Shown here piece after piece: positions 1 to 52,797 of a stretch of DNA of 64,000 nt; within the stretch, counting starts at the first letter, position 1; every line of letters begins with the position of its first letter. Both the position numbers and the translations under genes were made by a program. The notes under the pieces are model-generated. The model had not been told where the DNA came from and ran no database searches. It worked only from the letters and a program-made list of their open reading frames with translations. The stretch comes from Ailanthus altissimus (lineage: Eukaryota > Streptophyta > Magnoliopsida > Sapindales > Simaroubaceae): the NCBI GenBank assembly GCA_946807835.1, contig OX327700.1, positions 23,844,001-23,908,000 on the forward strand. The letters are read 5' to 3'.

Positions 1-2149
1 GGCAGACAGGTTTTCTTGCTGCTGTGGTGGTGGATTACTTTGTAGAATGGTTGTTGTTAAATTGTTAATAAATTAGTGGATTAATTTGAAGATTGGTGGT
101 AAATTGTTTATATGATAGGTATTACTTGCATAAGCAACTTGTTAATTATTGATGTGTACCAGTTTTTTAATTTTACTTTTATAGATATATTTTTTAATTA
201 CTTGATAAATTATTACAAAAATATAAATAAAAACACAAATATAAATATAAATTATTAATTATAAATAAAAAATGATACAAATCTATTATTAAATTGTGAT
301 AAATCTGCATGTACTGTGATGTCATCATATGTCTATTAAGTGACATCATTATTATGTTATTTTCATAACATCATTTGTCATTTGTCATTTGTCATATCAT
401 CTGTCATAATATTCCCATGTGTAAATTCAATTCTCATTTTATAAAAGAATATAACAACTTTGTAATAGAGATAATTTATTACTAAATATCTTTACTACTG
501 TTTGGTGATAAATTTTTATTTATCATGAATCACACTTAAGGTGATAGATAGAATTTATAATAAAATTAATTTTGTGATAAATTTTTATCTATCATGGAAT
601 TCCTTTTTTCTTGTAGATCAAATAGGAATATAAATGAGAAATTCTATGAACTTGCTCATAGATCACATATGATCATGAGGATGATCTCAGATTTGGACTT
701 TGGAATAGCAATTCAATCTACTAATTGACTAATTTATTTTTAATTTATAAACTTATTAAAGAGTTAAAAGTTATTTATTAAAATTCACTTGAAATAATAG
801 TTATTTATAAGATTCTTTTTAAAAAGATTTGGATGAGAGTGAAAAAATCTCGCTTACTAAATATTAAATTTTATTCTATTTTTATTTGAATTTAAATTTG
901 AATGGTTGGAAGCACAAAATGCTTTCATGACTAACTGAACTTTGTTCCATGGGCAAGACCAAATATATCTTAGAGAAGATACAGAACTTTAACACAATTT
1001 CCAACTTTGGAAGAAAATGGCAAATTATAGTATTATGCAGTACAGAACAAGGTTTTTATTAACAATAACGATTATTTTTATTGCTCCTCCGCATGAACAA
1101 GAACAGGTTTCTATTAACAATGACAATTATTGAGATCGTGCAAGGCGTTATGTTCATTTTTTTATTATCTCTCAATTTCAAAATTAAACCAAACACTACT
1201 GCCGTGTCGTTCATTTGTTGCTGCGCCGACTGTTCTGCTGCAGCAACTTCTCTCTCGTGCCATCTCTCTCTCAAGGGTCAATCTCGGCTTTTGTTTCTTC
1301 ATTTGGTAATATTTTTTTATTCTTATATTTTTTTGGCGAATTGAGGGTTTCATGCTTGGTTGTTGGGCTTTATTGTGAAGTGAGTTGGAGGTTTTTATGC
1401 TTAATTATTGGGCACCTTGTTAAACAAATCTCTATTGAGGAATTTTGTCAAACGTTATATATGCATCTGCCACAATAAACATTACACACAATAGAACTAG
1501 GGCCTTCTACTTTTATCTTTTATTAGATTTTGTTCTTGTTTAGTTTCATCTTGCCTATACAGAAAAAGAAGGAAAAAAAAAAAGATCCTCCTTTGCTTGT
1601 ATGCATATGAATTTAGAGAAGCTACAATAGTTACACAAAAAAAACCAGAACAGACAAGAGAAGCAAATGATATCAGATGTAGTCCCACCAAAAAAAAAAT
1701 TAGTGGCTTATGAGTGTTGTAAACATACGTAAAAGATAAATCTTGATGTGTGCATGTATAACCGATATAGTAGTTTTCCAAACATGATGCACAATGATGT
1801 AACAAAATGATGTTGTTTTGATAAATTATCGAACTAAAAAACTTATCTAATTCATATAATGAAAATTTATTACACGTGTAATTAAAATTATATAACAAAT
1901 TTAATAACTTATATAATGTGTAATAAAATTTTATTATTATATAAATTCGGCCACCCATTTTATTCTTGTATGCATATGATTTTAATATGGTTTTGTGAAT
2001 ATTTTCGCCTATCATATATTTGTGCAGGCATGTGGTTGCTTAATTAATTACTATTAAAGAATTTTATTAATCAATTATCCTACATAGAATTATATATTGC
2101 ATTGAGATATTGTTGTAATTGTATTGTGATTGGATTTGGTTGGTGTAGA
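1..2149. other. AT-rich intergenic DNA, no gene recognised
   Basis: No coding signal is convincing on either strand: the open frames are short, low-complexity and match no family I know. Visible items are a direct repeat of about 25 bp at 506-530 and 575-600 (period 69), whose core is self-complementary around a run of T, and a short tandem of a TTTGTCA motif near 375-395. The 1200-1300 stretch is pyrimidine-rich and could be an old promoter or leader for the hAT relic that follows. No hAT terminal inverted repeat was found at this side. Confidence 0.5.
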
Positions 2150-4190
2150 ATGAATTGTCATTCAAAAATTCAAGGAGATGGACAAAGTGTTACTAATAGT
2201 AATAGTAGTTACTTGTAATCACTAGTTTGAGAAAGTTTCATCAAGCTATTGGGGGGGGGGAGGACCTAGATGCAACTATTGTAAGAAGACATGCATGTAA
2301 CAGTAGTAATGTTAGAACTTCAAATTTGAGGTCTCATTTGAAAAGATGTGTTGCTTATCTGAGCACACAAATTGATGAAACACAACATGAGTTAGTACTA
2401 GAAAAAAAAACAAATGTGAATGTAGGGGGAAAAATATCGCAAATGTTGTGGTACTTGGGTTTAATCAAAAAGACCTTAGATAATCACTTATTCGGTGCAT
2501 CATAAAAGATGAGTGGCCTTTTAAGAATGTGGAGGGTGAAGGGTTTAATGAGTTTATGGGAAAAGCTTGTCTAAGATTTAAAATGTTATCTCGAAGAACA
2601 GTTGCAAAAGGCATCTTTGAGTTGTATACGAATGAGAATGCCTTATTACAAAGTATTTTGTGATTTAATAAGCAGAGAATTTCGATCACAACGACTACTT
2701 GGACTTCAATCTAGAATGAGAATTACATGGTAATAACATCTCACTTTATTGATGAGAAGTGAGAGTTACATAAGAAAATTCTCAATTTAGGATTATTGTA
2801 TACCAAAATGAGATACTATTGAAAAGTGTATAGAAAGTTGTTTACTTGACTGGGGTATTGAAAATATCTTTGCTATTACAGTGGACAATGCAAGTGCAAA
2901 TGATGTTGTAATAGGTTATGTCAAACGAAAAATAAGGAGTTGGAAGGAGGATTCATTAGTTTTGGTTGGTGATTTCATGCATTTGCGGTGTTTTGCACAT
3001 ATTATTAATCCGATTGTGCAAGATGTGAATGAATCTATTGCTGGTATTTGTAATGTTTTCAAGTACATTAGGTCTTCCCCTCAAGATTGAAATTTTTTAA
3101 GAAATGTGTAAAACGAGAGAAAATCTCATAAAAAGCACTTGTCCATCTAAATGTATTAGCTAGGTGGAACTTAAAATATTTAGTATTAGATAGTGCTTTC
3201 AAATTGAGAAAGGCATTTTGTCAAATAGAATGTGATGATAATCAATATTATTCTTATTTTTCAAAGGATGATAGTGGCAATAAAAAGGCAGGGCCACCAA
3301 AAGATGTAGATCGGGATAATGATCAGAGGTTGGTAAAGCTTTTGAAGACATTCTATGATGTGACTTTGAAATTTAGTTCATCCACACAAGTGTCTCGCAT
3401 CTATTTTTGAATGAAATTTGAAAGATTCAATCATATTTAAAGACATTCATAGATGGTAAAGATGTGTTATTAGGGAAAATGGCTGATATTATAAAAAGAA
3501 AATTTGACAAGTATTGAGGATCTCTCGACAAAATCAACATTTTAATTGTGGTAGCAATACTTAATCCTCGTTGCAAATTAAAATTTGTTGAGAGGTGTTT
3601 AGCACTTTATTTAATGGCATAAATGTGGATGAAATAATGACTTATGTTAGACAAATGTTATTTAAGTTGTTTGATAGTTATAAGGCATTTAGATCACATG
3701 GTGGAAAGGAATATAGTATTACTCACAATCAATCTTTTAACAACGTGTAATTAGGAGGTTGAGTAGATGAAGAGAGTGAAGAAGAGGAAGACACTTATGA
3801 TGCTTTATGCCAATTCTATAAAATACAAAAGAGAAGAATTAATGTTCAGGAACATGAGATTGAGATGTATTTGTCAACTGAGATAGAGAAGTCTAAAAAT
3901 GTACAATTTGAAATATTAAGTTAGTAAAAATTAAATTGGATAAAGTATCCAATTTTCTCTCAAATTGTCAAGGATATTTTTGTAATTCTAGTGTTTACTG
4001 TTGCCTCTAGTCTGCATTTAGTATGAGAGAATGCATTTTTAATGCATTCATGAGTTCTTTAACTCTTAAATCTGTGAATGCCTTGATTTGCACTCATAAT
4101 TGGCTTTAGTTTATTTTTCTTAGAGACAAGATGGACGTTCCTGACATGAAATATGCTGACATTTGTAAAGGCGTTGAAATATGTATAATA
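2150..4190 (+). pseudogene. hAT-superfamily transposase pseudogene, + copy
   Basis: A relic of a plant hAT (Ac/Tam3-type) transposase, which would bind element ends and catalyse cut-and-paste transposition in the nucleus. It aligns by eye along its length with the better-preserved minus-strand copy at 21410-23395. Recognisable pieces in order are a damaged BED zinc finger (about 2225-2370), a central RNase H-like part (2500-3100, including a DNASANDV block and the HLRCFAHIIN block at 2970-3010), and a C-terminal dimerisation part (3950-4175). The frame is broken by several frameshifts and stops. One TGA at 2760-2762 stands where hAT proteins usually have Trp, and the same stop is in the other copy. 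From 3176 on, the gene lies inside the first unit of the tandem array, so its C-terminal half occurs five times. Confidence 0.85.
2251..2260 (+). repeat. G10 homopolymer inside the hAT relic
   Basis: Ten consecutive G followed by AGG. The matching place in the minus-strand copy (around 23285-23295) has only short G runs, so the tract grew in this copy. It ends two bases before 2263, where the DNA copied into the array junctions begins, so it may have been a replication-stalling site. The link to the rearrangement is inference. Confidence 0.7.
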
Positions 4191-5764
4191 ATTACTTATA
4201 TTGTCGTATGATAGTTAATTTTTTTAATTTTGCTCTTTACTTATCTTTTACATGTTTTATTCTAAAAATTTGGGCAACTCGATAGATGCATCAAAGCATA
4301 TTATGATCACTGATTGATAAAAGTATTAAATGTAATAAAGTTTAAATTTATTATATTTTTTATATCTAATTTATAATTTATAAATATAAGTTTTTTTTAA
4401 TACTCGTAGACTTGTTGGCTTTTGGATTAGAGTTGAAATTATTATGTGTTTTATATCTAATTTATAATTTATTAATATAATTTTTTTTAATACTTGTTGG
4501 CTTTTGGATTGGAGTTGAAATTAATGGTTACGGAGTTGACCATTTTGAATTTTGGATATATGGTCACCATTACATGGTATTGATGGACAATTGAAAATTG
4601 ATGAATAATTTTATTTTTATGTATAATCTTATTTTAAATATTATGTTGATGAATAATTTTATTTTTATGAATATAATGTTGATTGACAATTTTTATTTTC
4701 ATGTATAATTGATGAACAATTTTACATGAACAATTTTATTGATGTTCAATTTTATTTTATTGATGAACAATTTTATTTTCATGGCTAATTTTGTTGATGG
4801 GCAATTTTTTTTTCTTGTACTTGAATTTTCACGGATAATTAATTTTGATGGACAAATTTATTTTTATGGTTGGTTGGTTTTTTTTATTTTCATGGATAAT
4901 TGATGTTCAATTTTATTTTGATGGATATTTTTATTTTTATTTAATAGGAGAATTTTATTTTATAGATATGGTTAGAAATTAATATATTATTAAAGATATT
5001 ATCATAAATACCTCTAATGTATCACTTAATATCAATAAAATTTACTAATTTAAAAAATAGATAATAATGCTTAACTGTTAAAAAATATTCTGTTAGAATT
5101 AACAGAATTACGTAAAATGACTAAATTACCCTTTAAAATATATTCTACCTCTACAAAGCATCATTTTTAAAAAATAATTTTTAATAATACCTTTTCTTTT
5201 ATTTTTTAATTAATAATATTAATAATTAAATTAATAAAAATATAAAATTAGTAGCCAAATGACTAGTACTAGCAGCTAAATGACTAATGCTAACAATTGG
5301 ATTGAGTTTTACTTGATCCAAATCCATAGCCAAATGAGTTGGGTTGCTGTCAACCTACCCTATTACCCAAATCTTAAGAATGAGTTTGGATTGGATTATA
5401 CCAAATCAAATTGGGTAGAATTCATGGAGCCTATTACTCAATTTTTATTATTGGATTTTATTATTGAACATATTTTAAAGTAAATTAAACTAATTTTGGG
5501 AAGAATTTTTAAATATTACTTTTAAAAATAATTGTCTAAATTACTAAATATTAATTATATTATGATTAAATTTAATATTATTAAATTATTTTTAAAATAT
5601 ACAAATCACTTGAACAAAATAATTTAATATCATTAATTATTGTACTAAAAAGAGAAAAAATATATATATAAAAATTATTAATCATAATACTGTGAACATA
5701 TTAAACTATATATAGTTGTCAAATATACTAAATGACCTAGATGCAACTATTGTAAGATGCAACT
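3176..5764 (+). repeat. Array unit 1
   Basis: First copy. Its left edge is seen by comparing 3176 onward with 5765 onward: bases agree from 3176 and disagree at 3175. Upstream of 3176 the hAT gene continues naturally, so this is the ancestral left breakpoint. The unit ends with the 31-bp filler at 5734-5764. Confidence 0.95.
5734..5764 (+). repeat. Templated filler at the unit 1/unit 2 junction
   Basis: The first 24 bases (5734-5757) are identical to 2263-2286 of the same hAT relic. The next bases (from 5758, TGCAACTAT) match 2271-2279 again before the sequence enters the unit start at 5765. The same filler is at 8323-8353, 10912-10942 and 13501-13531, and is absent after unit 5. Such a patchwork is the mark of template switching during break repair or replication. 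The filler also supplies an ATG (5757-5759) in frame with the downstream transposase fragment. Confidence 0.93.
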
Positions 5765-8353
5765 ATATTTAGTATTAGATAGTGCTTTCAAATTGAGAAA
5801 GGCATTTTGTCAAATAGAATGTGATGATAATCAATATTATTCTTATTTTTCAAAGGATGATAGTGGCAATAAAAAGGCAGGGCCACCAAAAGATGTAGAT
5901 CGGGATAATGATCAGAGGTTGGTAAAGCTTTTGAAGACATTCTATGATGTGACTTTGAAATTTAGTTCATCCACACAAGTGTCTCGCATCTATTTTTGAA
6001 TGAAATTTGAAAGATTCAATCATATTTAAAGACATTCATAGATGGTAAAGATGTGTTATTAGGGAAAATGGCTGATATTATAAAAAGAAAATTTGACAAG
6101 TATTGAGGATCTCTCGACAAAATCAACATTTTAATTGTGGTAGCAATACTTAATCCTCGTTGCAAATTAAAATTTGTTGAGAGGTGTTTAGCACTTTATT
6201 TAATGGCATAAATGTGGATGAAATAATGACTTATGTTAGACAAATGTTATTTAAGTTGTTTGATAGTTATAAGGCATTTAGATCACATGGTGGAAAGGAA
6301 TATAGTATTACTCACAATCAATCTTTTAACAACGTGTAATTAGGAGGTTGAGTAGATGAAGAGAGTGAAGAAGAGGAAGACACTTATGATGCTTTATGCC
6401 AATTCTATAAAATACAAAAGAGAAGAATTAATGTTCAGGAACATGAGATTGAGATGTATTTGTCAACTGAGATAGAGAAGTCTAAAAATGTACAATTTGA
6501 AATATTAAGTTAGTAAAAATTAAATTGGATAAAGTATCCAATTTTCTCTCAAATTGTCAAGGATATTTTTGTAATTCTAGTGTTTACTGTTGCCTCTAGT
6601 CTGCATTTAGTATGAGAGAATGCATTTTTAATGCATTCATGAGTTCTTTAACTCTTAAATCTGTGAATGCCTTGATTTGCACTCATAATTGGCTTTAGTT
6701 TATTTTTCTTAGAGACAAGATGGACGTTCCTGACATGAAATATGCTGACATTTGTAAAGGCGTTGAAATATGTATAATAATTACTTATATTGTCGTATGA
6801 TAGTTAATTTTTTTAATTTTGCTCTTTACTTATCTTTTACATGTTTTATTCTAAAAATTTGGGCAACTCGATAGATGCATCAAAGCATATTATGATCACT
6901 GATTGATAAAAGTATTAAATGTAATAAAGTTTAAATTTATTATATTTTTTATATCTAATTTATAATTTATAAATATAAGTTTTTTTTAATACTCGTAGAC
7001 TTGTTGGCTTTTGGATTAGAGTTGAAATTATTATGTGTTTTATATCTAATTTATAATTTATTAATATAATTTTTTTTAATACTTGTTGGCTTTTGGATTG
7101 GAGTTGAAATTAATGGTTACGGAGTTGACCATTTTGAATTTTGGATATATGGTCACCATTACATGGTATTGATGGACAATTGAAAATTGATGAATAATTT
7201 TATTTTTATGTATAATCTTATTTTAAATATTATGTTGATGAATAATTTTATTTTTATGAATATAATGTTGATTGACAATTTTTATTTTCATGTATAATTG
7301 ATGAACAATTTTACATGAACAATTTTATTGATGTTCAATTTTATTTTATTGATGAACAATTTTATTTTCATGGCTAATTTTGTTGATGGGCAATTTTTTT
7401 TTCTTGTACTTGAATTTTCACGGATAATTAATTTTGATGGACAAATTTATTTTTATGGTTGGTTGGTTTTTTTTATTTTCATGGATAATTGATGTTCAAT
7501 TTTATTTTGATGGATATTTTTATTTTTATTTAATAGGAGAATTTTATTTTATAGATATGGTTAGAAATTAATATATTATTAAAGATATTATCATAAATAC
7601 CTCTAATGTATCACTTAATATCAATAAAATTTACTAATTTAAAAAATAGATAATAATGCTTAACTGTTAAAAAATATTCTGTTAGAATTAACAGAATTAC
7701 GTAAAATGACTAAATTACCCTTTAAAATATATTCTACCTCTACAAAGCATCATTTTTAAAAAATAATTTTTAATAATACCTTTTCTTTTATTTTTTAATT
7801 AATAATATTAATAATTAAATTAATAAAAATATAAAATTAGTAGCCAAATGACTAGTACTAGCAGCTAAATGACTAATGCTAACAATTGGATTGAGTTTTA
7901 CTTGATCCAAATCCATAGCCAAATGAGTTGGGTTGCTGTCAACCTACCCTATTACCCAAATCTTAAGAATGAGTTTGGATTGGATTATACCAAATCAAAT
8001 TGGGTAGAATTCATGGAGCCTATTACTCAATTTTTATTATTGGATTTTATTATTGAACATATTTTAAAGTAAATTAAACTAATTTTGGGAAGAATTTTTA
8101 AATATTACTTTTAAAAATAATTGTCTAAATTACTAAATATTAATTATATTATGATTAAATTTAATATTATTAAATTATTTTTAAAATATACAAATCACTT
8201 GAACAAAATAATTTAATATCATTAATTATTGTACTAAAAAGAGAAAAAATATATATATAAAAATTATTAATCATAATACTGTGAACATATTAAACTATAT
8301 ATAGTTGTCAAATATACTAAATGACCTAGATGCAACTATTGTAAGATGCAACT
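5765..8353 (+). repeat. Array unit 2
   Basis: Full 2589-bp copy, in phase with unit 1. Begins with the transposase fragment whose open frame (5757-5999, 80 codons) starts in the filler of the junction before it. Confidence 0.95.
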
Positions 8354-10942
8354 ATATTTAGTATTAGATAGTGCTTTCAAATTGAGAAAGGCATTTTGTC
8401 AAATAGAATGTGATGATAATCAATATTATTCTTATTTTTCAAAGGATGATAGTGGCAATAAAAAGGCAGGGCCACCAAAAGATGTAGATCGGGATAATGA
8501 TCAGAGGTTGGTAAAGCTTTTGAAGACATTCTATGATGTGACTTTGAAATTTAGTTCATCCACACAAGTGTCTCGCATCTATTTTTGAATGAAATTTGAA
8601 AGATTCAATCATATTTAAAGACATTCATAGATGGTAAAGATGTGTTATTAGGGAAAATGGCTGATATTATAAAAAGAAAATTTGACAAGTATTGAGGATC
8701 TCTCGACAAAATCAACATTTTAATTGTGGTAGCAATACTTAATCCTCGTTGCAAATTAAAATTTGTTGAGAGGTGTTTAGCACTTTATTTAATGGCATAA
8801 ATGTGGATGAAATAATGACTTATGTTAGACAAATGTTATTTAAGTTGTTTGATAGTTATAAGGCATTTAGATCACATGGTGGAAAGGAATATAGTATTAC
8901 TCACAATCAATCTTTTAACAACGTGTAATTAGGAGGTTGAGTAGATGAAGAGAGTGAAGAAGAGGAAGACACTTATGATGCTTTATGCCAATTCTATAAA
9001 ATACAAAAGAGAAGAATTAATGTTCAGGAACATGAGATTGAGATGTATTTGTCAACTGAGATAGAGAAGTCTAAAAATGTACAATTTGAAATATTAAGTT
9101 AGTAAAAATTAAATTGGATAAAGTATCCAATTTTCTCTCAAATTGTCAAGGATATTTTTGTAATTCTAGTGTTTACTGTTGCCTCTAGTCTGCATTTAGT
9201 ATGAGAGAATGCATTTTTAATGCATTCATGAGTTCTTTAACTCTTAAATCTGTGAATGCCTTGATTTGCACTCATAATTGGCTTTAGTTTATTTTTCTTA
9301 GAGACAAGATGGACGTTCCTGACATGAAATATGCTGACATTTGTAAAGGCGTTGAAATATGTATAATAATTACTTATATTGTCGTATGATAGTTAATTTT
9401 TTTAATTTTGCTCTTTACTTATCTTTTACATGTTTTATTCTAAAAATTTGGGCAACTCGATAGATGCATCAAAGCATATTATGATCACTGATTGATAAAA
9501 GTATTAAATGTAATAAAGTTTAAATTTATTATATTTTTTATATCTAATTTATAATTTATAAATATAAGTTTTTTTTAATACTCGTAGACTTGTTGGCTTT
9601 TGGATTAGAGTTGAAATTATTATGTGTTTTATATCTAATTTATAATTTATTAATATAATTTTTTTTAATACTTGTTGGCTTTTGGATTGGAGTTGAAATT
9701 AATGGTTACGGAGTTGACCATTTTGAATTTTGGATATATGGTCACCATTACATGGTATTGATGGACAATTGAAAATTGATGAATAATTTTATTTTTATGT
9801 ATAATCTTATTTTAAATATTATGTTGATGAATAATTTTATTTTTATGAATATAATGTTGATTGACAATTTTTATTTTCATGTATAATTGATGAACAATTT
9901 TACATGAACAATTTTATTGATGTTCAATTTTATTTTATTGATGAACAATTTTATTTTCATGGCTAATTTTGTTGATGGGCAATTTTTTTTTCTTGTACTT
10001 GAATTTTCACGGATAATTAATTTTGATGGACAAATTTATTTTTATGGTTGGTTGGTTTTTTTTATTTTCATGGATAATTGATGTTCAATTTTATTTTGAT
10101 GGATATTTTTATTTTTATTTAATAGGAGAATTTTATTTTATAGATATGGTTAGAAATTAATATATTATTAAAGATATTATCATAAATACCTCTAATGTAT
10201 CACTTAATATCAATAAAATTTACTAATTTAAAAAATAGATAATAATGCTTAACTGTTAAAAAATATTCTGTTAGAATTAACAGAATTACGTAAAATGACT
10301 AAATTACCCTTTAAAATATATTCTACCTCTACAAAGCATCATTTTTAAAAAATAATTTTTAATAATACCTTTTCTTTTATTTTTTAATTAATAATATTAA
10401 TAATTAAATTAATAAAAATATAAAATTAGTAGCCAAATGACTAGTACTAGCAGCTAAATGACTAATGCTAACAATTGGATTGAGTTTTACTTGATCCAAA
10501 TCCATAGCCAAATGAGTTGGGTTGCTGTCAACCTACCCTATTACCCAAATCTTAAGAATGAGTTTGGATTGGATTATACCAAATCAAATTGGGTAGAATT
10601 CATGGAGCCTATTACTCAATTTTTATTATTGGATTTTATTATTGAACATATTTTAAAGTAAATTAAACTAATTTTGGGAAGAATTTTTAAATATTACTTT
10701 TAAAAATAATTGTCTAAATTACTAAATATTAATTATATTATGATTAAATTTAATATTATTAAATTATTTTTAAAATATACAAATCACTTGAACAAAATAA
10801 TTTAATATCATTAATTATTGTACTAAAAAGAGAAAAAATATATATATAAAAATTATTAATCATAATACTGTGAACATATTAAACTATATATAGTTGTCAA
10901 ATATACTAAATGACCTAGATGCAACTATTGTAAGATGCAACT
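8354..10942 (+). repeat. Array unit 3
   Basis: Full 2589-bp copy. The 80-codon frame is at 8346-8588 and the 67-codon frame at 10458-10661, both translating as in the other units. Confidence 0.95.
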
Positions 10943-13531
10943 ATATTTAGTATTAGATAGTGCTTTCAAATTGAGAAAGGCATTTTGTCAAATAGAATGT
11001 GATGATAATCAATATTATTCTTATTTTTCAAAGGATGATAGTGGCAATAAAAAGGCAGGGCCACCAAAAGATGTAGATCGGGATAATGATCAGAGGTTGG
11101 TAAAGCTTTTGAAGACATTCTATGATGTGACTTTGAAATTTAGTTCATCCACACAAGTGTCTCGCATCTATTTTTGAATGAAATTTGAAAGATTCAATCA
11201 TATTTAAAGACATTCATAGATGGTAAAGATGTGTTATTAGGGAAAATGGCTGATATTATAAAAAGAAAATTTGACAAGTATTGAGGATCTCTCGACAAAA
11301 TCAACATTTTAATTGTGGTAGCAATACTTAATCCTCGTTGCAAATTAAAATTTGTTGAGAGGTGTTTAGCACTTTATTTAATGGCATAAATGTGGATGAA
11401 ATAATGACTTATGTTAGACAAATGTTATTTAAGTTGTTTGATAGTTATAAGGCATTTAGATCACATGGTGGAAAGGAATATAGTATTACTCACAATCAAT
11501 CTTTTAACAACGTGTAATTAGGAGGTTGAGTAGATGAAGAGAGTGAAGAAGAGGAAGACACTTATGATGCTTTATGCCAATTCTATAAAATACAAAAGAG
11601 AAGAATTAATGTTCAGGAACATGAGATTGAGATGTATTTGTCAACTGAGATAGAGAAGTCTAAAAATGTACAATTTGAAATATTAAGTTAGTAAAAATTA
11701 AATTGGATAAAGTATCCAATTTTCTCTCAAATTGTCAAGGATATTTTTGTAATTCTAGTGTTTACTGTTGCCTCTAGTCTGCATTTAGTATGAGAGAATG
11801 CATTTTTAATGCATTCATGAGTTCTTTAACTCTTAAATCTGTGAATGCCTTGATTTGCACTCATAATTGGCTTTAGTTTATTTTTCTTAGAGACAAGATG
11901 GACGTTCCTGACATGAAATATGCTGACATTTGTAAAGGCGTTGAAATATGTATAATAATTACTTATATTGTCGTATGATAGTTAATTTTTTTAATTTTGC
12001 TCTTTACTTATCTTTTACATGTTTTATTCTAAAAATTTGGGCAACTCGATAGATGCATCAAAGCATATTATGATCACTGATTGATAAAAGTATTAAATGT
12101 AATAAAGTTTAAATTTATTATATTTTTTATATCTAATTTATAATTTATAAATATAAGTTTTTTTTAATACTCGTAGACTTGTTGGCTTTTGGATTAGAGT
12201 TGAAATTATTATGTGTTTTATATCTAATTTATAATTTATTAATATAATTTTTTTTAATACTTGTTGGCTTTTGGATTGGAGTTGAAATTAATGGTTACGG
12301 AGTTGACCATTTTGAATTTTGGATATATGGTCACCATTACATGGTATTGATGGACAATTGAAAATTGATGAATAATTTTATTTTTATGTATAATCTTATT
12401 TTAAATATTATGTTGATGAATAATTTTATTTTTATGAATATAATGTTGATTGACAATTTTTATTTTCATGTATAATTGATGAACAATTTTACATGAACAA
12501 TTTTATTGATGTTCAATTTTATTTTATTGATGAACAATTTTATTTTCATGGCTAATTTTGTTGATGGGCAATTTTTTTTTCTTGTACTTGAATTTTCACG
12601 GATAATTAATTTTGATGGACAAATTTATTTTTATGGTTGGTTGGTTTTTTTTATTTTCATGGATAATTGATGTTCAATTTTATTTTGATGGATATTTTTA
12701 TTTTTATTTAATAGGAGAATTTTATTTTATAGATATGGTTAGAAATTAATATATTATTAAAGATATTATCATAAATACCTCTAATGTATCACTTAATATC
12801 AATAAAATTTACTAATTTAAAAAATAGATAATAATGCTTAACTGTTAAAAAATATTCTGTTAGAATTAACAGAATTACGTAAAATGACTAAATTACCCTT
12901 TAAAATATATTCTACCTCTACAAAGCATCATTTTTAAAAAATAATTTTTAATAATACCTTTTCTTTTATTTTTTAATTAATAATATTAATAATTAAATTA
13001 ATAAAAATATAAAATTAGTAGCCAAATGACTAGTACTAGCAGCTAAATGACTAATGCTAACAATTGGATTGAGTTTTACTTGATCCAAATCCATAGCCAA
13101 ATGAGTTGGGTTGCTGTCAACCTACCCTATTACCCAAATCTTAAGAATGAGTTTGGATTGGATTATACCAAATCAAATTGGGTAGAATTCATGGAGCCTA
13201 TTACTCAATTTTTATTATTGGATTTTATTATTGAACATATTTTAAAGTAAATTAAACTAATTTTGGGAAGAATTTTTAAATATTACTTTTAAAAATAATT
13301 GTCTAAATTACTAAATATTAATTATATTATGATTAAATTTAATATTATTAAATTATTTTTAAAATATACAAATCACTTGAACAAAATAATTTAATATCAT
13401 TAATTATTGTACTAAAAAGAGAAAAAATATATATATAAAAATTATTAATCATAATACTGTGAACATATTAAACTATATATAGTTGTCAAATATACTAAAT
13501 GACCTAGATGCAACTATTGTAAGATGCAACT
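10943..13531 (+). repeat. Array unit 4
   Basis: Full 2589-bp copy. The 80-codon frame is at 10935-11177 and the 67-codon frame at 13047-13250. Confidence 0.95.
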
Positions 13532-16089
13532 ATATTTAGTATTAGATAGTGCTTTCAAATTGAGAAAGGCATTTTGTCAAATAGAATGTGATGATAATCA
13601 ATATTATTCTTATTTTTCAAAGGATGATAGTGGCAATAAAAAGGCAGGGCCACCAAAAGATGTAGATCGGGATAATGATCAGAGGTTGGTAAAGCTTTTG
13701 AAGACATTCTATGATGTGACTTTGAAATTTAGTTCATCCACACAAGTGTCTCGCATCTATTTTTGAATGAAATTTGAAAGATTCAATCATATTTAAAGAC
13801 ATTCATAGATGGTAAAGATGTGTTATTAGGGAAAATGGCTGATATTATAAAAAGAAAATTTGACAAGTATTGAGGATCTCTCGACAAAATCAACATTTTA
13901 ATTGTGGTAGCAATACTTAATCCTCGTTGCAAATTAAAATTTGTTGAGAGGTGTTTAGCACTTTATTTAATGGCATAAATGTGGATGAAATAATGACTTA
14001 TGTTAGACAAATGTTATTTAAGTTGTTTGATAGTTATAAGGCATTTAGATCACATGGTGGAAAGGAATATAGTATTACTCACAATCAATCTTTTAACAAC
14101 GTGTAATTAGGAGGTTGAGTAGATGAAGAGAGTGAAGAAGAGGAAGACACTTATGATGCTTTATGCCAATTCTATAAAATACAAAAGAGAAGAATTAATG
14201 TTCAGGAACATGAGATTGAGATGTATTTGTCAACTGAGATAGAGAAGTCTAAAAATGTACAATTTGAAATATTAAGTTAGTAAAAATTAAATTGGATAAA
14301 GTATCCAATTTTCTCTCAAATTGTCAAGGATATTTTTGTAATTCTAGTGTTTACTGTTGCCTCTAGTCTGCATTTAGTATGAGAGAATGCATTTTTAATG
14401 CATTCATGAGTTCTTTAACTCTTAAATCTGTGAATGCCTTGATTTGCACTCATAATTGGCTTTAGTTTATTTTTCTTAGAGACAAGATGGACGTTCCTGA
14501 CATGAAATATGCTGACATTTGTAAAGGCGTTGAAATATGTATAATAATTACTTATATTGTCGTATGATAGTTAATTTTTTTAATTTTGCTCTTTACTTAT
14601 CTTTTACATGTTTTATTCTAAAAATTTGGGCAACTCGATAGATGCATCAAAGCATATTATGATCACTGATTGATAAAAGTATTAAATGTAATAAAGTTTA
14701 AATTTATTATATTTTTTATATCTAATTTATAATTTATAAATATAAGTTTTTTTTAATACTCGTAGACTTGTTGGCTTTTGGATTAGAGTTGAAATTATTA
14801 TGTGTTTTATATCTAATTTATAATTTATTAATATAATTTTTTTTAATACTTGTTGGCTTTTGGATTGGAGTTGAAATTAATGGTTACGGAGTTGACCATT
14901 TTGAATTTTGGATATATGGTCACCATTACATGGTATTGATGGACAATTGAAAATTGATGAATAATTTTATTTTTATGTATAATCTTATTTTAAATATTAT
15001 GTTGATGAATAATTTTATTTTTATGAATATAATGTTGATTGACAATTTTTATTTTCATGTATAATTGATGAACAATTTTACATGAACAATTTTATTGATG
15101 TTCAATTTTATTTTATTGATGAACAATTTTATTTTCATGGCTAATTTTGTTGATGGGCAATTTTTTTTTCTTGTACTTGAATTTTCACGGATAATTAATT
15201 TTGATGGACAAATTTATTTTTATGGTTGGTTGGTTTTTTTTATTTTCATGGATAATTGATGTTCAATTTTATTTTGATGGATATTTTTATTTTTATTTAA
15301 TAGGAGAATTTTATTTTATAGATATGGTTAGAAATTAATATATTATTAAAGATATTATCATAAATACCTCTAATGTATCACTTAATATCAATAAAATTTA
15401 CTAATTTAAAAAATAGATAATAATGCTTAACTGTTAAAAAATATTCTGTTAGAATTAACAGAATTACGTAAAATGACTAAATTACCCTTTAAAATATATT
15501 CTACCTCTACAAAGCATCATTTTTAAAAAATAATTTTTAATAATACCTTTTCTTTTATTTTTTAATTAATAATATTAATAATTAAATTAATAAAAATATA
15601 AAATTAGTAGCCAAATGACTAGTACTAGCAGCTAAATGACTAATGCTAACAATTGGATTGAGTTTTACTTGATCCAAATCCATAGCCAAATGAGTTGGGT
15701 TGCTGTCAACCTACCCTATTACCCAAATCTTAAGAATGAGTTTGGATTGGATTATACCAAATCAAATTGGGTAGAATTCATGGAGCCTATTACTCAATTT
15801 TTATTATTGGATTTTATTATTGAACATATTTTAAAGTAAATTAAACTAATTTTGGGAAGAATTTTTAAATATTACTTTTAAAAATAATTGTCTAAATTAC
15901 TAAATATTAATTATATTATGATTAAATTTAATATTATTAAATTATTTTTAAAATATACAAATCACTTGAACAAAATAATTTAATATCATTAATTATTGTA
16001 CTAAAAAGAGAAAAAATATATATATAAAAATTATTAATCATAATACTGTGAACATATTAAACTATATATAGTTGTCAAATATACTAAAT
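13532..16089 (+). repeat. Array unit 5 (lacks the filler)
   Basis: 2558 bp. Matches the other units up to ...ACTAAAT at 16089 and then runs into unrelated DNA, exactly where the other units enter the 31-bp filler. The point 16089/16090 is therefore the original right breakpoint of the duplicated segment. Confidence 0.95.
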
Positions 16090-16417
16090 TACATCAAATA
16101 AAAAAATACAATATATAAAAAAATATTTCTTTTCAAGTTTCTCCACAACCCTATATTATTAAAAAAATCAAAAGATTATGTTCAATAATATTAAACATGT
16201 TTCAATATAAGAAATTAATAGTATCTATAAAAATATTCACCTCACGTTCTTCATCTTCCTTACAACGTTTTCATCATCAACTAATGTGTCAATTTTTATC
16301 TTAAAACAAGTAGTTAATTCAAAATAAAATAAATAAATAGACAACATGGTAATTATAATAAAAATAATAGTAAAAAAGTAAATAAAATATAATTAAAAAA
16401 AACTTTATACCTCATGA
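16090..16417. other. AT-rich DNA to the right of the array
   Basis: No gene, repeat or RNA recognised. This is the DNA that originally followed the single-copy segment. Confidence 0.5.
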
Positions 16418-16560
16418 TTTATCACGTAGTCAACTTTAACAGCACATTAAAATCTCAATTGTATTTGGATAAAGGCTATTACAATGTGGAGTAAAAATTC
16501 TACCACTAACACTAAATGCTAATACTACTACCTATGTTCTAGTTGCCACTATGAGAAGAG
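16418..16560 (-). pseudogene. Fragment of a different hAT transposase (dimerisation domain)
   Basis: Read on the minus strand, one frame gives AFSVSGRI followed by a block like PHCNSLYPNTIEILMC and a degraded SWLRD end. This is the order of the C-terminal hAT dimerisation region (ASESAFS..GR, then P..S.L.P.T.E.L.C...W). It is broken by stops. The wording differs from the hAT family of the array and of 21.4-23.4 kb (AFSMRECI-type), so it comes from another hAT lineage. Identification rests on a short motif run. Confidence 0.6.
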
Positions 16561-20090: not shown

Positions 20091-20763
20091 ATATGCTGTC
20101 AAATCTTCCAAGTCCAACTACTAGCTTTATGCAATTAGGAATTTGTTATTATGTAGTTTTGAGTAAGGCTGGGCACGGTTCGGTTCGATTCGATCCGATT
20201 TTTGCTGGAACCGAACCAAACCGGTCCGATCGGATTTTTTGTTGTGTAAAAACCGAATGTTATTTAGAGAAGAAAAAAATCGAACTGAACCGAACTGGTT
20301 TTTTTCGGTTTGGTTCGGTTTTTTCTATTTTTTTGCTATTTTTTGAATTTTTTTTAATTTCAAATTTTGGAATTTTTTTTAAATAATTCTTTTTTATTTG
20401 AACAATTTTACATAATTCTTCTATAATTGTCCATCAACAATTCAATATTGTCCAATTCCATCGAAAAAAATTATTCATAACAATAAAAATTGACCATCAA
20501 TATAATATTCATAAAAATAAAATTTGTTATCAACATAATATTCAAAATAAAATTATAATTAATACATAAAAATAAATTTATCTATCAATATCTAATTGTC
20601 AATCAATATCACATAACAGTGATCACATATCTAAAGTCAAAATGGCCAACTTTAATAATTTCATAGAAAAAGAATATTGTCCATCATCATAATATTCATG
20701 AAAAAAAAATTATCAACAAAATTATTCATAAAAATGAAAAATGTTTAGCAACATAATATTCAT

Positions 20764-20960
20764 GAAAATAAATTTGTTAATCAACAATTCAAAATAACAT
20801 TCACGAAAATAAATTTGTTAATCAACAATTCAAAATAACATTCACGAAAATAAAATTATTCATTAACAATTCAATATAACATTCACGAAAATAAAATTGT
20901 TCATTAACAATTCAACACAATATTTATGAAAATAAAATTGTTCACCAACATAATATTCAA
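20764..20960 (+). repeat. 41-bp minisatellite in the hAT 3' subterminal region
   Basis: Four to five copies of a roughly 41-bp unit (GAAAATAAATTTGTTAATCA... followed by ACAATTC and ATTCAC), the first two nearly identical and later ones drifting. Similar AAAATTGTTCATCAA motifs recur less regularly over 20400-21010, and their complements fill 4570-4930 in each array unit, showing that the two hAT copies share this subterminal structure. Confidence 0.85.
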
Positions 20961-21409
20961 AGTAAGATTATGTATAGAAAATAAATTATCCATCAATAAT
21001 CTAATTGACCATCAACACCACATACATAGTTGTGACCATATATTCAAAATCTAAAATAAAAAAACTCCATGTCTATTAATTTTATCTCCAATCCAAAAAA
21101 CCAACAAATCTACAAGTATTAGAAAGAAAAAAAAACTTATATTAGTAAACTATATACTATAAATTATAAATTAGATATAAGAAACATAATAAATTTAAAA
21201 GGCCTCATACCTCCAATACTTTTATCAATCAGTGGTCATAATATGTTGTGATGCATTCATCAAAATGCTTAATTCTATAAAGAAAAATATAATAAAAAAT
21301 AAGTAAAGATCGAAGTTAAAAATAAATAAATATCATATGACTATATAAATAATTATTATACTTGTTTCAACGCTTTCACAAATGTCAGCATCTTTTGTGT
21401 TAGGCACGT

Positions 21410-23395
21410 CCATCTTGTCTCCAAGAAGAGTAGACTGAAGCCAATTCTGAATGCAAATCAAGGCATTCACAGATTGAGGAATCAAAAAACTCTTAAATGC
21501 ATCAAGAATGCGCCATTCTGTACTAAATGCAGACTCAGAGGCAACAGTAGAAACTGGAATTGTAAAAACATCATTGACAATTCAAGACAAAACTGGATAC
21601 TTTATACAATTTAATTTTCACTAACTTAAGATTTCAAAGTGTGCATTATAAGACTTCTCTATCTCAGTTGACAAATACATCTAAATCTCATGTTTCAAGA
21701 TATCAATTCTTATTTTTTGTGTTTTATGGAATTGAAACAAAGCATCGTAAGTGTCTTCTTCTTCTAGACCCCCTTCATATACACCACCTCCTAAATTACT
21801 ATTACTAAATTCCCCCTCACTATGTGATTCAAATGTCTTATAATTGTCAAATAACTTAAACAACAATTGTTTAACAGAATTAATTATATCACTCATACTT
21901 ATACCATTAAATAAAGTGCCTAAACACCACTCAACAAAATCTATTTTGCAACGAGGATCAAGTATTGCTGCCATAATTAAAATATTGTTAATTTTTTCGA
22001 GAGATCCCTGATATTTGTCAAATTTAATCTTCATAACACTAGTCATACCCCTCAATAACTCATCTCTACTGGCTATAAGTATTTTCAAATATGATTGAAT
22101 CTTTCAAATTTCATTCAGAAGTAAATGAGAAGATACTTGTTTGGATGAACTAAATTTTAAAATCACATCATAGAATGTCTTTAGAAACTTGACCAACCTT
22201 TGAGCATTCTCCTAATCTGCATCTTTTGGTGGCCTTGCCTTTTTGTTGCCACTGTCAATGTCATCCACCCTAAAATAAGAATAATACTGATCATCATCAC
22301 ATTCTATCTGATAAAATATCTTTCTTAGTTTCAAAGCACTATCTAACATATATATGTTGAGTTCCACCTAGTTGGTACATTTAGGTGGATAAGCGCTTTC
22401 AATGAGATTTTCTCTCTTTCTACAAATTTATTAAAAAAATTTAATCTTGAGATGGAAGACCTAATGTACTTGACAGTATTACGAATACCAACAATGGACT
22501 CATTCACCTCTTTCATCCCATCTTGCAAAATCAAATTAATAATATGTGCAGAACACCGCAAATGCATGAAATTACCACCAATAATTAATGAATCCTCCTT
22601 CTAGCTCTTTAATTTTCTTTTGACATAAGTCACTGCAACATCATTTGCACTTACATTGTTTACTGTAATAGTAAATATATTTTCAATGCCCCATTCAAGC
22701 AAACAACTTTCTACACACTTCCTGATAGTTTCTCCTTTATGGTTTTCAATAATTCCAAAACTAAGAATCCTTTTATACAACTCTCACTTCTTATTAATAA
22801 AGTGAGATGTTATTACTATGTAATTCTCATTCTGGATTGAAGTCCAAGTATTCGTTGTGATTGAAATTCTTTGCTTATTAGAACATAAAATACTTTGCAA
22901 CAAGGTTTTCTCATTCATATGCAGATCAAGGATGTGTCTTGCAACTGTTCTTCGTGATGGCATTTTAAATCTTGGACAAGCTTTTGCCATAAACTCATTA
23001 AACCCTTCACCCTCTACATTCTTAAAAGGCCACTCATCTTTTATAATGCATCGAATAAGTAATTTTTTGAGATCCTCCTAATTAAACCCAACTGCCACAA
23101 CATTTGCAACACTTTTTCTCCTTACATTTACATTTGTTTTTTCTAGTACTAACTCATGTTGTGTTTCATCAATTTGTTTGCTCAGATAAGCAACACATCT
23201 TTTCGAATGAGACCTCAAATTTGAAATTTCAACAATACTACTGTGATATGCATATGTCTTTCTACAGTAATTGCATTTAGCTCTTTCCCTACCCGGTAGC
23301 TTGGTAAAAATTTTCCAAACTATTGATCTCAAGTGACTAGTATTACTATTGGTAACACTTTGCCCACCTCCTTCAATTTTTGAACTACGATCCAT
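21410..23395 (-). pseudogene. hAT transposase pseudogene, - copy (better preserved)
   Basis: Start ATG at 23395. Domains in order: BED zinc finger (KCNYC, later HSKRC, about residues 35-65); a conserved block with LHMNEKTLL and TTNTWTS (22990-22784); the RNase H-like core with MHLRCSAHIINLILQDG and VPTRWNSTY (22567-22343); DPRCK (about 21945); and the hAT dimerisation domain with VASESAF (about 21530-21550) and a WLQSTLLGDKMD-like end (about 21415-21440). Breaks: TAG near 23078, TGA at 22784-22786 (shared with the + copy), TAG near 22605, and a frameshift at an AT run near 22345 that puts 22088-21681 in another frame. Long segments stay open, so it decayed fairly recently. Once mutated it could still move only if a sister copy supplied transposase. 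Confidence 0.9.
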
Positions 23396-24049
23396 TCTAC
23401 AACAAAATCACAATTCATAATTCATAACACTATCATATCACAACCAAATAGTACAACTAAGACGATATTAGAGTATGTAAAATCATGATGCCAAGTTTTT
23501 AAGTCAATACAATCGAAAAATAAAAAAAATAGTAACTCAAATATGAACGTATCAAGTGCACTACAGATTGTTTAATACAAGTAAGAGACAAACATCTCGT
23601 ACACATTTCACTGAATACTTGCTATGCATATATATTCAATCAAACCCCTTTCACAAGCAATATACCTACAACAAATGCCCATTAACCTAACATGAATTAC
23701 AAATCTGGGAAACAAATACCACATTGAAGGTCAAGTGATCTTTTTTACCTAATGAAAGAAACATCTACAATATGGCTTACTTCAAAATAAGCACTACAAT
23801 AACTTTATTTCTTTTTTAAGTCTAGAAATCAAAGGACTAAAAACAATAACTACATCTGGGCTAAGCATACTACATTTACTAACATAATTGAAATAAATTA
23901 GAAACACATAAATAAACTGTAAGCAATGACACCCCCTGATATTTCATTATCACCCAAATAAATAAAATTCTCACATGCATAGCATAATGATCAATGAAGA
24001 AGACCAAAAATCAGAACAATTTGCAAGCAGAGCAAAATTGACATGTTCC

Positions 24050-29414: not shown

Positions 29415-32400
29415 ATGGTGTCGGACGCGAGCAAGAAGAAGGCTGCACAGAAGAAGGCAGCGGCGGCAGCCAAGAGAGGAGGGAAGGCAGCTGCGGCGGC
29501 TGCGTCCTCCAAGGCAGCGGAGAAGCAGAATGGGAATGGTGTTGATAAAGTGGCTGATGGAATTGGAGCTATTCAGATTTCTGATCGAACTTGTACGGGA
29601 GTGCTTTGCTCCCACCCTCTCTCCAGAGATATACGGGTAAGTTCGCTCCAATTTTCGTAAACTGGAATTTTAAATAGTTGTAAATGTATTAAAATGGTTG
29701 CAGTTAGTAAAGGGTGCATCACCTTGATCTGATGATATTTCTTTGGTATATTTTATATATATTATTGATATTCTAGTCAATAGACATTATATTTTATTGA
29801 TATTCTTGTCAATAGACATTATAGAGAAAGATGAAAAGGTGAAAAAGAAAAAAAGTATACATGATAGAGAAGTATGTAACATCTAGAAAAGATATTTATG
29901 ATCAAAGCAAGATGAGTTTTTAAAATTTATTTGAATTTGGTCAAATTGTTTCTTGGTTGAGTACCTCTTTGTTGTTGGAAGCTAGAAAATTCTTTATGCA
30001 TGTAGCATACCTTGATGTATGATTATTGATGATGAGCTGGATTGTGTCCTTGTTGCAGATAGAATCCTTGTCGGTCACTTTTCATGGACATGATCTCATA
30101 GTTGATTCTGAACTGGAGCTTAACTATGGCAGGTTAGTTAAACTTTCCTACTTTAAGTATTATTGTGCTTATGTAGCTGTTAGTTGATATATCTAACCTT
30201 TTATTTATGCTTTTCATATATAATTATTTGCACATTCGTTATGTTTGCAGACGTTATGGCTTGCTTGGCTTAAATGGGTGCGGAAAATCTACGCTCCTGA
30301 CTGCAATAGGGTGCCGAGAGCTTCCAATTCCTGAACACATGGATATCTATCACCTTACCAGGGAGATTGAAGCATCTGACATGTCTGCCTTGGAAGCTAT
30401 TGTCAATTGTGATGAGGAAAGGCTGAAATTGGAGAAGGAAGCTGAAACCTTGGCATCACAGGTGTGTCTGGTTGAAAGTTTTGTTGTCTTAGCCTATTGT
30501 AGTTAAAACAGCAAATATGATGATTTTTATTTTAAATTTGTGTTAGGATGATGGAGGTGGAGAACCACTTGAACGCCTTTATGAGCGTTTGGAAGCCATG
30601 GATGCATCAACTGCAGAGAAACGTGCTGCAGAAATTTTATATGGTCTTGGTTTTAACAAAAAGATGCAAGCAAAGAAAACACGTGATTTCTCCGGTGGCT
30701 GGAGAATGAGGATTGCATTGGCACGAGCTCTATTTATGAATCCAACTATTCTGTTGCTTGATGAGCCAACCAATCATCTAGGTAAGTCTTTTTATTGGTG
30801 ATATACAAACCTATTGTTGGAAAATTCAGTGTCTAAAGACTTTACCTTGTCTGCATATTTTGGTGATGAGTTTCAGTAGTGCGCATGATTGGTGTTTGTT
30901 GCATGTGATTGTGGGCAATGGGCATGGTATGAGGTAGCCAAACAGATATGTTAGTTTTCAATTGTTTAGCATTCGAGGAGCATAACTTACATGTTAGTTT
31001 TTCAATTGATTGGTGTTTGTTGCATGTGATTGTGGGCAATAGGCATGGTATGAGGTAGCCAAGCAGATATGTTAGTTTTCAATTGTTTTATAGCCTCCTA
31101 AAATTCATCTATGGGAATCTTATATGTAAGGAAAACATTTGCTTTCGAGCTCACTTATTTCCAGGAATCGAAAGCTAAACAATAAGCATTTTCATTTAGA
31201 TCCAATTGCTTCAAATGCAGAACTGTCTGAGCATATTTTGTAATTTCAGTTTCAGTAGTGGGATGTTTGATTGATGTTTGTTCTGTTTGGAGTATGGTAT
31301 GAAATAGCTCAGTAGATTCATCTTTTGGCCTTTTGATGCCCCTCCCCCTCCCCTCCCCCACCCAAAAAAAAAAAAAAGACATCTAATTTATTAGGATTCC
31401 TATGTTTGAAACAGATATAGTGCTCATGAATGTTGTGAACATAAATGACAGAAATTCTTGAAAGCATTTCCTTGTCAGGATTTGCCCATTAAATTATAAC
31501 CTCAAAAAAAGTTTGTTAATCTCAGTAGAGGAAATGTTTTGACAAAATTTCCTTGGTTGTCATATGTTATGCCCTTTTTGGTCAATGTCTGTGTTTGGGT
31601 GGGGAGGGGGATGGACATGCTTGCATAGTAAGACCATTTATAATCTTTAATGATATTGTTTTCGAATCCAATAATTAGCAAATCTGAGTGATAATGGGTT
31701 TTCATGTGAAATAGATTTAGAAGCCTGTGTCTGGCTGGAGGAGACCTTGAAGAAATTTGACCGCATCTTGGTCGTGGTTTCGCACTCCCAGGATTTTCTC
31801 AATGGAGTTTGCACAAGTATTATTCACATGCAAAACAAGAAACTGAAGCTATATACTGGTAATTATGATCAATATGTCCAGACCCGTGCTGAACTTGAAG
31901 AGAACCAGATGAAACAGTACAAGTGGGAGCAGGAGCAGATAGCTTCAATGAAGGAATATATTGCCCGATTTGGCCATGGGTCTGCAAAACTAGCTCGCCA
32001 GGCCCAGAGCAAGGAGAAAACTTTGGCAAAGATGGAGAGAGGTGGGCTTACTGAAAAAGTGGTGAGAGACAAAGTTCTTGTCTTCCGTTTTGTTGATGTT
32101 GGGAAGCTACCCCCTCCAGTTCTGCAATTTGTCGAAGTCACATTTGGCTACACTCCTGATAATATCATTTACAAGAACCTTGATTTTGGGGTAGACTTGG
32201 ACTCGAGGGTAGCTTTGGTGGGACCCAATGGAGCTGGAAAGAGTACGCTGCTGAAGCTGATGACAGGGGATTTGGTTCCTCTTGATGGCATGGTCCGGCG
32301 TCATAATCACCTTAGAATTGCACAATACCATCAACACTTGACTGAGAAACTTGACTTGGAAATGCCTGCCCTCCAATATATGTTGAAAGAGTACCCAGGG

Positions 32401-32766
32401 AATGAGGAGGAAAAAATGAGAGCAGCAATAGGGAGGTTTGGACTGACAGGTAAAGCCCAGGTGATGCCAATGAAGAATTTGTCAGATGGGCAAAAGAGCA
32501 GAGTGATTTTTGCATGGTTAGCATACAGGCAACCTCACATGCTTCTGTTGGATGAGCCAACTAATCACTTGGATATTGAGACAATCGACTCCCTGGCTGA
32601 GGCATTGAATGAGTGGGATGGGGGTATGGTTCTTGTTAGCCATGATTTTAGGCTCATAAACCAAGTAGCTGAGGAAATATGGGTATGTGAAAATCAAGCC
32701 ATCACTCGGTGGGAGGGAGATATTATGGACTTCAAGGAGCACCTCAAGGCTAAGGCTGGTTTATAA
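29415..32766 (+). CDS. ABCF1: ABC transporter F family member 1 (soluble ABC ATPase)
   Basis: Five coding exons with GT-AG introns: 29415-29636, 30059-30132, 30251-30461, 30547-30781, 31715-32766 (1794 nt, 597 aa, close to the 595 aa of Arabidopsis ABCF1). Lys/Ala-rich N-terminus ([20 protein letters not shown]), no membrane segments, two nucleotide-binding domains. Domain 1: Walker [10 protein letters not shown] (105-113), signature FSGGWRMR (217-224), Walker B LLLDEP (238-243), His of VSHSQDF (271). Linker with charged coiled coil (293-354). Domain 2: Walker [10 protein letters not shown] (417-425), signature LSDGQ (503-507), Walker B LLLDEP (524-529), His of VSHDF (557). All catalytic motifs are intact. 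ABCF proteins act at ribosomes: yeast relatives GCN20, ARB1 and New1 work in translation control and ribosome biogenesis. The exact plant role is less settled. Confidence 0.97.
29764..29823 (+). repeat. 32-bp tandem duplication in ABCF1 intron 1
   Basis: ATTGATATTCT(A/T)GTCAATAG followed by ACATTAT occurs twice with a 32-bp period, well inside the intron (29637-30058). No effect on splice sites. Confidence 0.85.
30887..31095 (+). repeat. 121-bp tandem duplication in ABCF1 intron 4
   Basis: GATTGGTGTTTGTTGCATGT and the following 70 bases occur at 30887 and again at 31008 with few changes. A weaker third relative, with TGATTGATGTTTGTTCTGTT and GTATGGTATGA, lies near 31265-31320. The long intron (30782-31714) probably grew by these duplications. 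Confidence 0.8.
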
Positions 32767-35486: not shown

Positions 35487-36399
35487 TGTTGGAATTGATG
35501 ATTCAAAATTAATGTTAAAGTTTTGATTTTGAGTTAAAAATTAATGATGAGTCAACACTAGGATGTCTATGCATTGGAAATATGAGAAAGAGACGAGAAT
35601 AAAAAGTCAAAAATGAGAAGGAGTACAAAAGCATGAGGAGACGAATCTCCAAATATGAGCATCACAATACTAGATTCTCATCACCGCAGCATCCAAGTCA
35701 GAACCCTTATTATTGCAACACTAGAAATATAGCATCGTAACGCTAATGTGGGATCACAGCAGCGTCGTGGTGCCCAATTTTGGTAGTTTTTTTTGTTTTA
35801 AGTTAACTTAATTAGTTTGAATGTTTTTGGACTTTTTAGACACGTGAACTCTTATTCCAATTAGGTTTAGAATTTTTAGGGATGTTTTAAACACTATATA
35901 AACTTTTGTAATTCATTAGAATTAATTAAGCATCAAAGATGTAAACATAAGAGTAATGAATTACAAAAGCATCAAAGATGTAAACATAAGAGAGAATAAA
36001 GAGGTAGGTAGGCATTATAACGCTGAGTGCATGAGAGAGTGCAACTATAGAATCACTTGAGTGCTGAGTGCGCAAGAGAGTGATAATAGATCATTTGAGA
36101 GAGAGATTTGGATATTTGTTGTATTCCTTAATTAATCTCTTATGGTAGGTCTTTGTGACTTAGAATTCTTAGTGAACTAATAATAAAAGAAGCTAGATTC
36201 TCGATCCGTTGTGGATGTAGACATTTGTTACTGAATCACGTATATCTTGTGTCTTATGGTGATTGTTTCTTTATCTATATTATATGTAATCTTTTATATT
36301 CTTAGTTACTTGTAGGTAAAGTCATTTACAAAGCATTTAGGTAGTTTTAGGGTGTAAATACTAGCCATAAAAGTATTAGGGCACATAAAAACCTTAACA
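35487..36399 (+). repeat. Left LTR of the deleted copia
   Basis: 913 bp, TGTTGGAATTGATGATTC ... CCTTAACA. Contains TATATAAAC (about 35895-35905) as a likely LTR TATA box and a GC-rich segment near 35680-35770 (GCAGCGTCGTGG). Followed by a weak primer-site-like AGTGGTATTAGG near 36433. Confidence 0.75.
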
Positions 36400-52792: not shown

Positions 52793-52797
52793 TTTAT

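Follow-up and report, generated by a model that had tools for sequence, protein, structure and literature searches.

Results

The array and its surroundings

The window, as we call the whole stretch of 64,000 bp analysed here (C18:23844001-23908000), belongs to a 939-Mb genome assembled in 37 contigs, and the contig that holds it measures 29 Mb. At 3176-16089, it carries five units of 2558 bp arranged head to tail (Table 1). Sequence comparison finds the units letter-identical, without a single difference over 12,914 bp, their number being known from one assembly. A filler of 31 bp occupies each of the four internal joins, and the period of the array is 2589 bp.

Judged by homology to dispersed relatives, the unit is composed of the 3' half of a decayed hAT element (hAT-1) and the tail of a second, inverted one (hAT-2), with the tails of the two remnants meeting at about 5265/5288. 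The 5' limit of hAT-1 is uncertain, as one relative (L018) has further matches at 1204-1472 and in pieces that precede the window; hAT-2 starts near 5276-5303 and, in the single-copy layout, ends at 16523. Two hAT-1 relatives with long open frames have a BED finger, a hAT RNase-H domain and a hAT dimerisation domain (Pfam), and in the fetched relative L026 a hAT-like RNase-H domain is encoded by the minus strand. The left break of the array lies inside a hAT transposase gene and the right break inside the second, inverted hAT remnant, both being internal to the elements.

The filler also provides an ATG in frame with the hAT fragment (5757-5999, and likewise from 8346, 10935 and 13524), so that units 2-5 would each acquire such a start. 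The first of these four 80-codon frames has no Pfam match, and the in-frame ATG is probably without meaning.

Several other repeats are found in the window. The same hAT family is represented again, in inverted orientation, at 20370-23483 (76-82% identity). There is an older direct duplication of 1.5 kb (44084-45602 and 49803-51314, 86% identical), a run of tandem repeats of about 200 bp (51415-52999, 83-87% alike) and a pair of direct repeats at 35771-36442 and 37992-38622 (78-83% alike). An 82-bp direct repeat (30886-30967 and 31007-31088, 97.6% identity) is located upstream of an ABC-F gene (31747-32766), which matches plant proteins, the best named ones coming from flowering plants at 94% identity.

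Table 1. Features of the array, of its template and breaks, and of tandem duplications in three relatives
Feature	Position	Strand	Basis or remark
hAT-1 remnant holding the template, the left break and most of unit 1	1811..5265	+	homology to relatives
Template for the first 24 bp of the filler, BED-finger coding part of the hAT transposase remnant	2263..2286	+	24/24 identity
Template for the second stretch of the filler, 12 bp including the 3-bp AGA overlap	2268..2279	+	12/12 identity
Left break / re-entry point, ambiguous across the 2-bp AT overlap	3176..3177	+	alignment with relatives
Unit 1, 3' half of hAT-1 and 3'-terminal part of inverted hAT-2	3176..5733	+	unit comparison, homology to relatives
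Filler 1, 31 bp	5734..5764	+	match to 2263-2286 / 2268-2279
Unit 2	5765..8322	+	unit comparison
Filler 2	8323..8353	+	filler comparison
Unit 3	8354..10911	+	unit comparison
Filler 3	10912..10942	+	filler comparison
Unit 4	10943..13500	+	unit comparison
Filler 4	13501..13531	+	filler comparison
Unit 5, without filler behind it	13532..16089	+	unit comparison
Original right break, counterpart of the end of unit 1 at 5733	16089..16090	.	relatives continuous across the position
Remainder of the inverted hAT-2 remnant	16090..16523	-	homology; other part at about 5288-5733 and repeats thereof
L050, 273 bp x2, 96% alike	L050:947-1492		window-equivalent about 3026-3259; unit includes the left-break position, different ends
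L051, about 51 bp x3	L051 (reverse complement):1189-1344		window-equivalent from about 3189
L052, 476 bp x2, 98% alike	L052 (reverse complement):153-1104		window-equivalent about 2110-2582

Composition and template of the filler

An earlier note on this DNA had claimed that each internal junction holds 24 bp taken from 2263-2286, followed by a step back on the same template and by entry into the unit at 3176. The first of these claims is confirmed, with 5734-5757 identical to 2263-2286 at all 24 positions, and all four fillers match one another letter for letter, a check that the note had itself named. The step back exists as well, but it spans 16 bp rather than 15 and leads to 2268-2279 rather than to 2271-2279; the second stretch of the filler (5755-5766) is identical to this segment at all 12 positions. 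Entry at 3176 stands, and 3178 is equally possible when the shared AT is counted with the filler. Overlaps amount to 0 bp where 5733 meets 2263, 3 bp (AGA) at the step back and 2 bp (AT) at re-entry; microhomology is hence present at two of the three joins, and being this short it may in part be explained by chance. The template is found about 890 bp from the left break and 3.4 kb from the right break, not within tens of bp.

Exact matches of this length did not arise in our chance controls. Set against the local 9.7 kb, 4000 31-mers drawn from other parts of the window gave exact matches of up to 18 bp and 4000 shuffles of the filler of up to 15 bp, compared with the 24 bp observed. For the second stretch of 12 bp, none of 20000 shuffles of itself matched the 61-bp template region.

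The exact 24-mer has five sites in the 939-Mb genome, namely the template and the four fillers, all of them at the array locus. Allowing up to two mismatches raises the number of genome sites to 11 (reversed control pattern: 0), and the six inexact sites, which lie elsewhere, all read GAG where the array locus reads GAC. GACCTA is likewise found in none of 25 aligned hAT relatives, 24 of which have GAGCTA and one GAGTTA. Because the exact 24-mer is confined to the array locus and GACC is private to it, the template must have been the array locus, its sister or its homologue. Copying of the filler from another hAT copy is thereby ruled out among the copies examined. Homology to relatives extends to both sides of 2263, which makes this the native position of the sequence.

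Both break sites are continuous in dispersed relatives

For the left break, we searched with 2140-3420 and scored 40 of 255 candidates, obtaining 43 rows that comprise the array locus, 39 other hAT copies and three second pieces. In all 39 of these copies, a single aligned piece covers both 2263 and 3177. The left break is also covered, in each case without filler, by 23 of the 25 aligned relatives; L017 and L018 stop short of it, and L021 covers only to 3206. These three belong to six relatives that were first chosen by the 24-mer pattern, and among them L017 ends at 2396, L018 is without 2984-3326 and L021 breaks after 3206. For the right break, a search with 16000-16500 (40 of 121 candidates scored; 40 rows, being the array locus and 39 others) gave 39 other copies, every one of which spans 16089/16090. 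All seven fetched relatives are colinear across this position without filler and read ...AAAT/TA(C/T)AT..., the slash marking the break.

Among the candidates scored, the nearest other copies of the two break regions show about 85-86% identity. They are dispersed paralogues, not another individual's allele, and since they are continuous across both breaks, both breaks lie in ordinary element sequence. This continuity bears out two expectations of the earlier note: that 16089/16090, where the last unit ends without filler, is the original right break, and that uninterrupted DNA would be found at both breakpoints in relatives, here in the form of dispersed paralogues. A relative with the filler and only one unit, or fillers differing between junctions, would have spoken against its account; neither was encountered among the places examined. 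A search with 5700-5800 returned six matches, all inside the array (the four junctions and the two edges). No further near-identical copy of the junction or of the edges was thus found in the genome by a search that would overlook a diverged copy of the whole locus.

Tandem duplications in other copies of the family

Once fetched, the second pieces in three of the 39 left-break relatives turned out to be a tandem duplication of each relative's own (L050, L051 and L052 in Table 1). Tandem duplication is thus a recurrent event in this hAT family (3 of 39 copies, over a searched length of 1.28 kb), and two of the three duplications include the array's left-break position or come within roughly 15 bp of it. 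All three joins abut directly and are free of filler, their overlaps measuring 0, 3 and 0 bp. Filler is therefore not the rule for duplications in the family, the array join being the exception among the four.

An inverted match at the breaks

The 9 bp at 5725-5733 (ATACTAAAT) and those at 3178-3186 (ATTTAGTAT) are perfect inverted complements whose ends fall exactly at the joins, as we noticed post hoc. A 9-bp match in that register occurred in 22 of 300000 random pairs and in 23 of 300000 local pairs. The left arm reads ATTTAATGT in 18 of 23 relatives and ATTTAGTAT in none of the 23, and the right arm reads GTGCCAAAT, ATGCCAAAT or GTGTCAAAT in the seven fetched relatives; among the relatives compared, the inverted match is private to the array locus on both arms. 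Across the 53.6-kb single-copy layout, ATACTAAAT has one plus-strand occurrence and its complement has seven, where about 3 would be expected for the two strands together. Folding of the single-stranded junction is more favourable than that of its shuffles (z -2.36), with 5 of 200 shuffles doing as well. None of the three duplications in L050, L051 and L052 has matched inverted ends.

A perfect 14-bp palindrome, AACTATATATAGTT, is located at 5704-5717, 16 bp before the right break, and is intact in five of the seven fetched relatives. It is one of 33 perfect palindromes of at least 14 bp in the single-copy layout.

Discussion

Founding of the array

The breaks are continuous in relatives, the template of the filler is local, the junctions are identical and there is no direct homology at the breaks. 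We consider it likely that the array was founded by a single tandem duplication, which arose with templated filler in the repair of a broken chromatid and was later multiplied to five units. The founding step is a non-homologous duplication with iteratively templated filler. The earlier note's view that one event accounts for all junctions is upheld in this form, as one founding event with locally templated filler.

How might such a duplication come about? We envision that an end halted at 5733 was joined to an end beginning at 3176/3178 and that, before joining, the growing 3' end would twice have copied a short tract of the array locus near 2263-2286, on the sister or on the same molecule, leaving 31 bp behind. 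Copying most likely ran leftward from the 3176 end: the 2-bp AT would prime synthesis of 2279-2268, the 3-bp AGA would re-prime synthesis of 2286-2263, and ligation to 5733 without overlap would be the last step. This polarity is preferred because both template switches then have an overlap and the overlap-free join becomes the final ligation. Moreover, as the tracts from 5733 to 3176, from 2279 to 2268 and from 2286 to 2263 would run in the same direction along one template, one break near 5733 suffices. In this economical version, a single break would occur at about 5733, and the right-hand end would copy the sister leftward from 5733 to 3176, skip ahead by 0.9 kb on the same template, take one 16-bp step back, be released and undergo end-joining. 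Such a course would amount to failed synthesis-dependent repair completed by theta-type end joining or, equivalently, to microhomology-mediated break-induced replication. Plain theta joining alone fits poorly, since the template is 0.9 kb away, whereas, in the cited passages of a review, the use of repeats in synthesis-dependent microhomology joining has dropped almost to zero once they lie about 30 bp from the break (PMC7407515). We infer the polarity, the enzyme, the single-break version and the route of expansion from two units to five.

The latter was probably unequal exchange between the 2.6-kb identical repeats, for which identical junctions at all joins are the expected outcome. On a star tree and with an assumed mutation rate of 7e-9 changes per site per generation, the units would be younger than about 33,000 generations, a bound that dates the last homogenisation and not the founding.

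Alternative origins

The same junction can be read in the opposite order, as the earlier note had done when it led from the right break to 2263, through a slip, and on to 3176. A replication fork would quit its template at 5733, restart at 2263, slip back by 16 bp and move on to 3176 (FoSTeS/MMBIR). We hold this to be possible, though only tentatively so. It entails identical sequence steps and overlaps, and a template distance of 0.9 kb fits fork switching, but its first switch would have to do without a primer overlap (0 bp), where the opposite polarity needs only a final ligation. This order is accordingly one of two consistent readings, and not the favoured one. From one junction, template switching in replication cannot be told from a failed sister-templated repair that end joining completed, and three joins are too small a sample for a statistical choice. 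As to mechanism, the note was right in kind, and right that the founding step was not unequal crossing-over, but too specific on pathway and direction: FoSTeS/MMBIR is not established as against theta-mediated end joining or failed sister-templated repair.

Alternatively, opposed-strand nicks at 5733 and 3178, replicated into sister breaks or filled in, might have been joined, with the filler contributed by theta-type joining. Both 3' ends would then read ATACTAAAT-3', the inverted match coinciding with the joins to the base, and paired nicks and 3' overhangs are documented sources of tandem duplications in the cited passages of two reports (PMC5730883, PMC8355091). We nevertheless regard this origin as improbable: the spacing here is 2.56 kb as against 43-46 nt in the experiments as described there, the match was seen post hoc and has a P of about 0.005-0.007 when it may lie anywhere up to 15 bp from the breaks, and the three other tandem duplications in relatives are without shared ends (register-specific matches of 2, 2 and 3 bp). 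The narrower idea that the breaks were opposed nicks by one activity cutting after ATACTAAAT-3' is highly doubtful, its probability being lowered by the lack of matched ends at all three shorter duplications (51-476 bp) in the hAT relatives, and we know of no nickase with a ATACTAAAT site. If it were true, and if other young kilobase-scale duplications had matched 3' ends, then a sequence-directed nick origin would be legible from breakpoints.

A circle of unit and filler that formed, was amplified and re-entered through homology would have produced the same final structure. It would require additional steps, however, and no stray junction copy is seen elsewhere, all six junction-type matches falling within the locus; an ectopic or circular origin is thus unsupported, and we judge the circle quite improbable. 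It is very unlikely, too, that the copy number or a chimeric join is an artefact of the assembly or library. Five letter-identical copies, known from one assembly, would suit an artefact, but a single join of 31 bp that has overlaps at two of its three switches and contains a private base has a biological look, and the assembly is one of 37 contigs, with 29 Mb in this one.

Unequal crossing-over, with repeats at both breaks as its substrate, would explain the later growth in copy number, but as a founder its probability is close to nil: each break lies in an element of its own, direct matches between the sequences up to 15 bp from either break do not exceed 6 bp, a length frequent among random pairs, and the filler stems from outside the unit. 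The missing direct homology and the templated filler together refute homologous exchange as the founding step and leave a role in later expansion unaffected. Equally negligible is an alternative (reversed-ends) hAT transposition of the kind known from maize Ac. Both breaks do lie in hAT remnants whose tails meet, but they are internal to these elements, and the junction holds templated filler instead of an element end or an 8-bp target duplication; we have dropped this candidate.

Significance and relation to known systems

At this locus, one genome suffices to read the founding join, the template of its filler and the continuity at both breaks; a locus-private base demonstrates local templating, and founding can be told apart from expansion. 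From a broader perspective, a tandem array, and possibly a proto-satellite, can grow out of a repair scar in decayed transposons without homology.

Complex tandem duplications ascribed to FoSTeS/MMBIR have junctions with short templated inserts and overlaps of 2-3 bp. The array junction resembles them in its short templated stretches and its 2-3-bp overlaps, and differs in that it has two tiny stretches only, with no larger copied block. As to serial switching at microhomology over kilobases, the distances fit, and one of the three joins is without overlap.

Duplications by reversed-ends Ac/Ds transposition have element ends at their junction, together with an 8-bp target duplication, according to the cited part of PMC3744419. 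They share with the array a direct tandem duplication in hAT-rich DNA, whereas the array junction is without element end or target duplication.

In C. elegans, the passages cited describe tandem duplications in HELQ-1-deficient worms that measure ~100 bp-10 kb, occasionally contain templated insertions and are ascribed to theta-type joining of failed sister-templated repair (PMC8654963), and deletions and tandem duplications in brc-1 and brd-1 worms that are suppressed by polq-1 removal (PMC7368036). The 2.6 kb of the array fall within this size range, and overlap at the junction and a templated insertion are shared with the helq-1 and brc-1 Pol theta duplications. Those events, as described, occurred in repair mutants, whereas the array consists of five copies in a natural plant genome.

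Fillers of 1-36 bp in tobacco and Arabidopsis are usually derived from one or several nearby stretches, for which template jumping was proposed (cited part of PMC3289645), and a patchwork make-up is said to be very frequent among plant end-joining products (cited part of PMC8654963). Like such filler DNA at plant double-strand-break joins (theta-mediated end joining), as far as the cited passages describe it (PMC3289645, PMC10923293), the array junction is patched from nearby stretches with short overlaps at the switches; unlike there, its template lies 0.9 kb away and its join is a tandem duplication that was later raised to five units. The filler is copied from flanking sequence, as in templated-insertion end joining (TMEJ). 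Templated fillers are well known in plants, and the array leaves the knowledge of filler DNA unchanged; it is a very clean instance of a known process.
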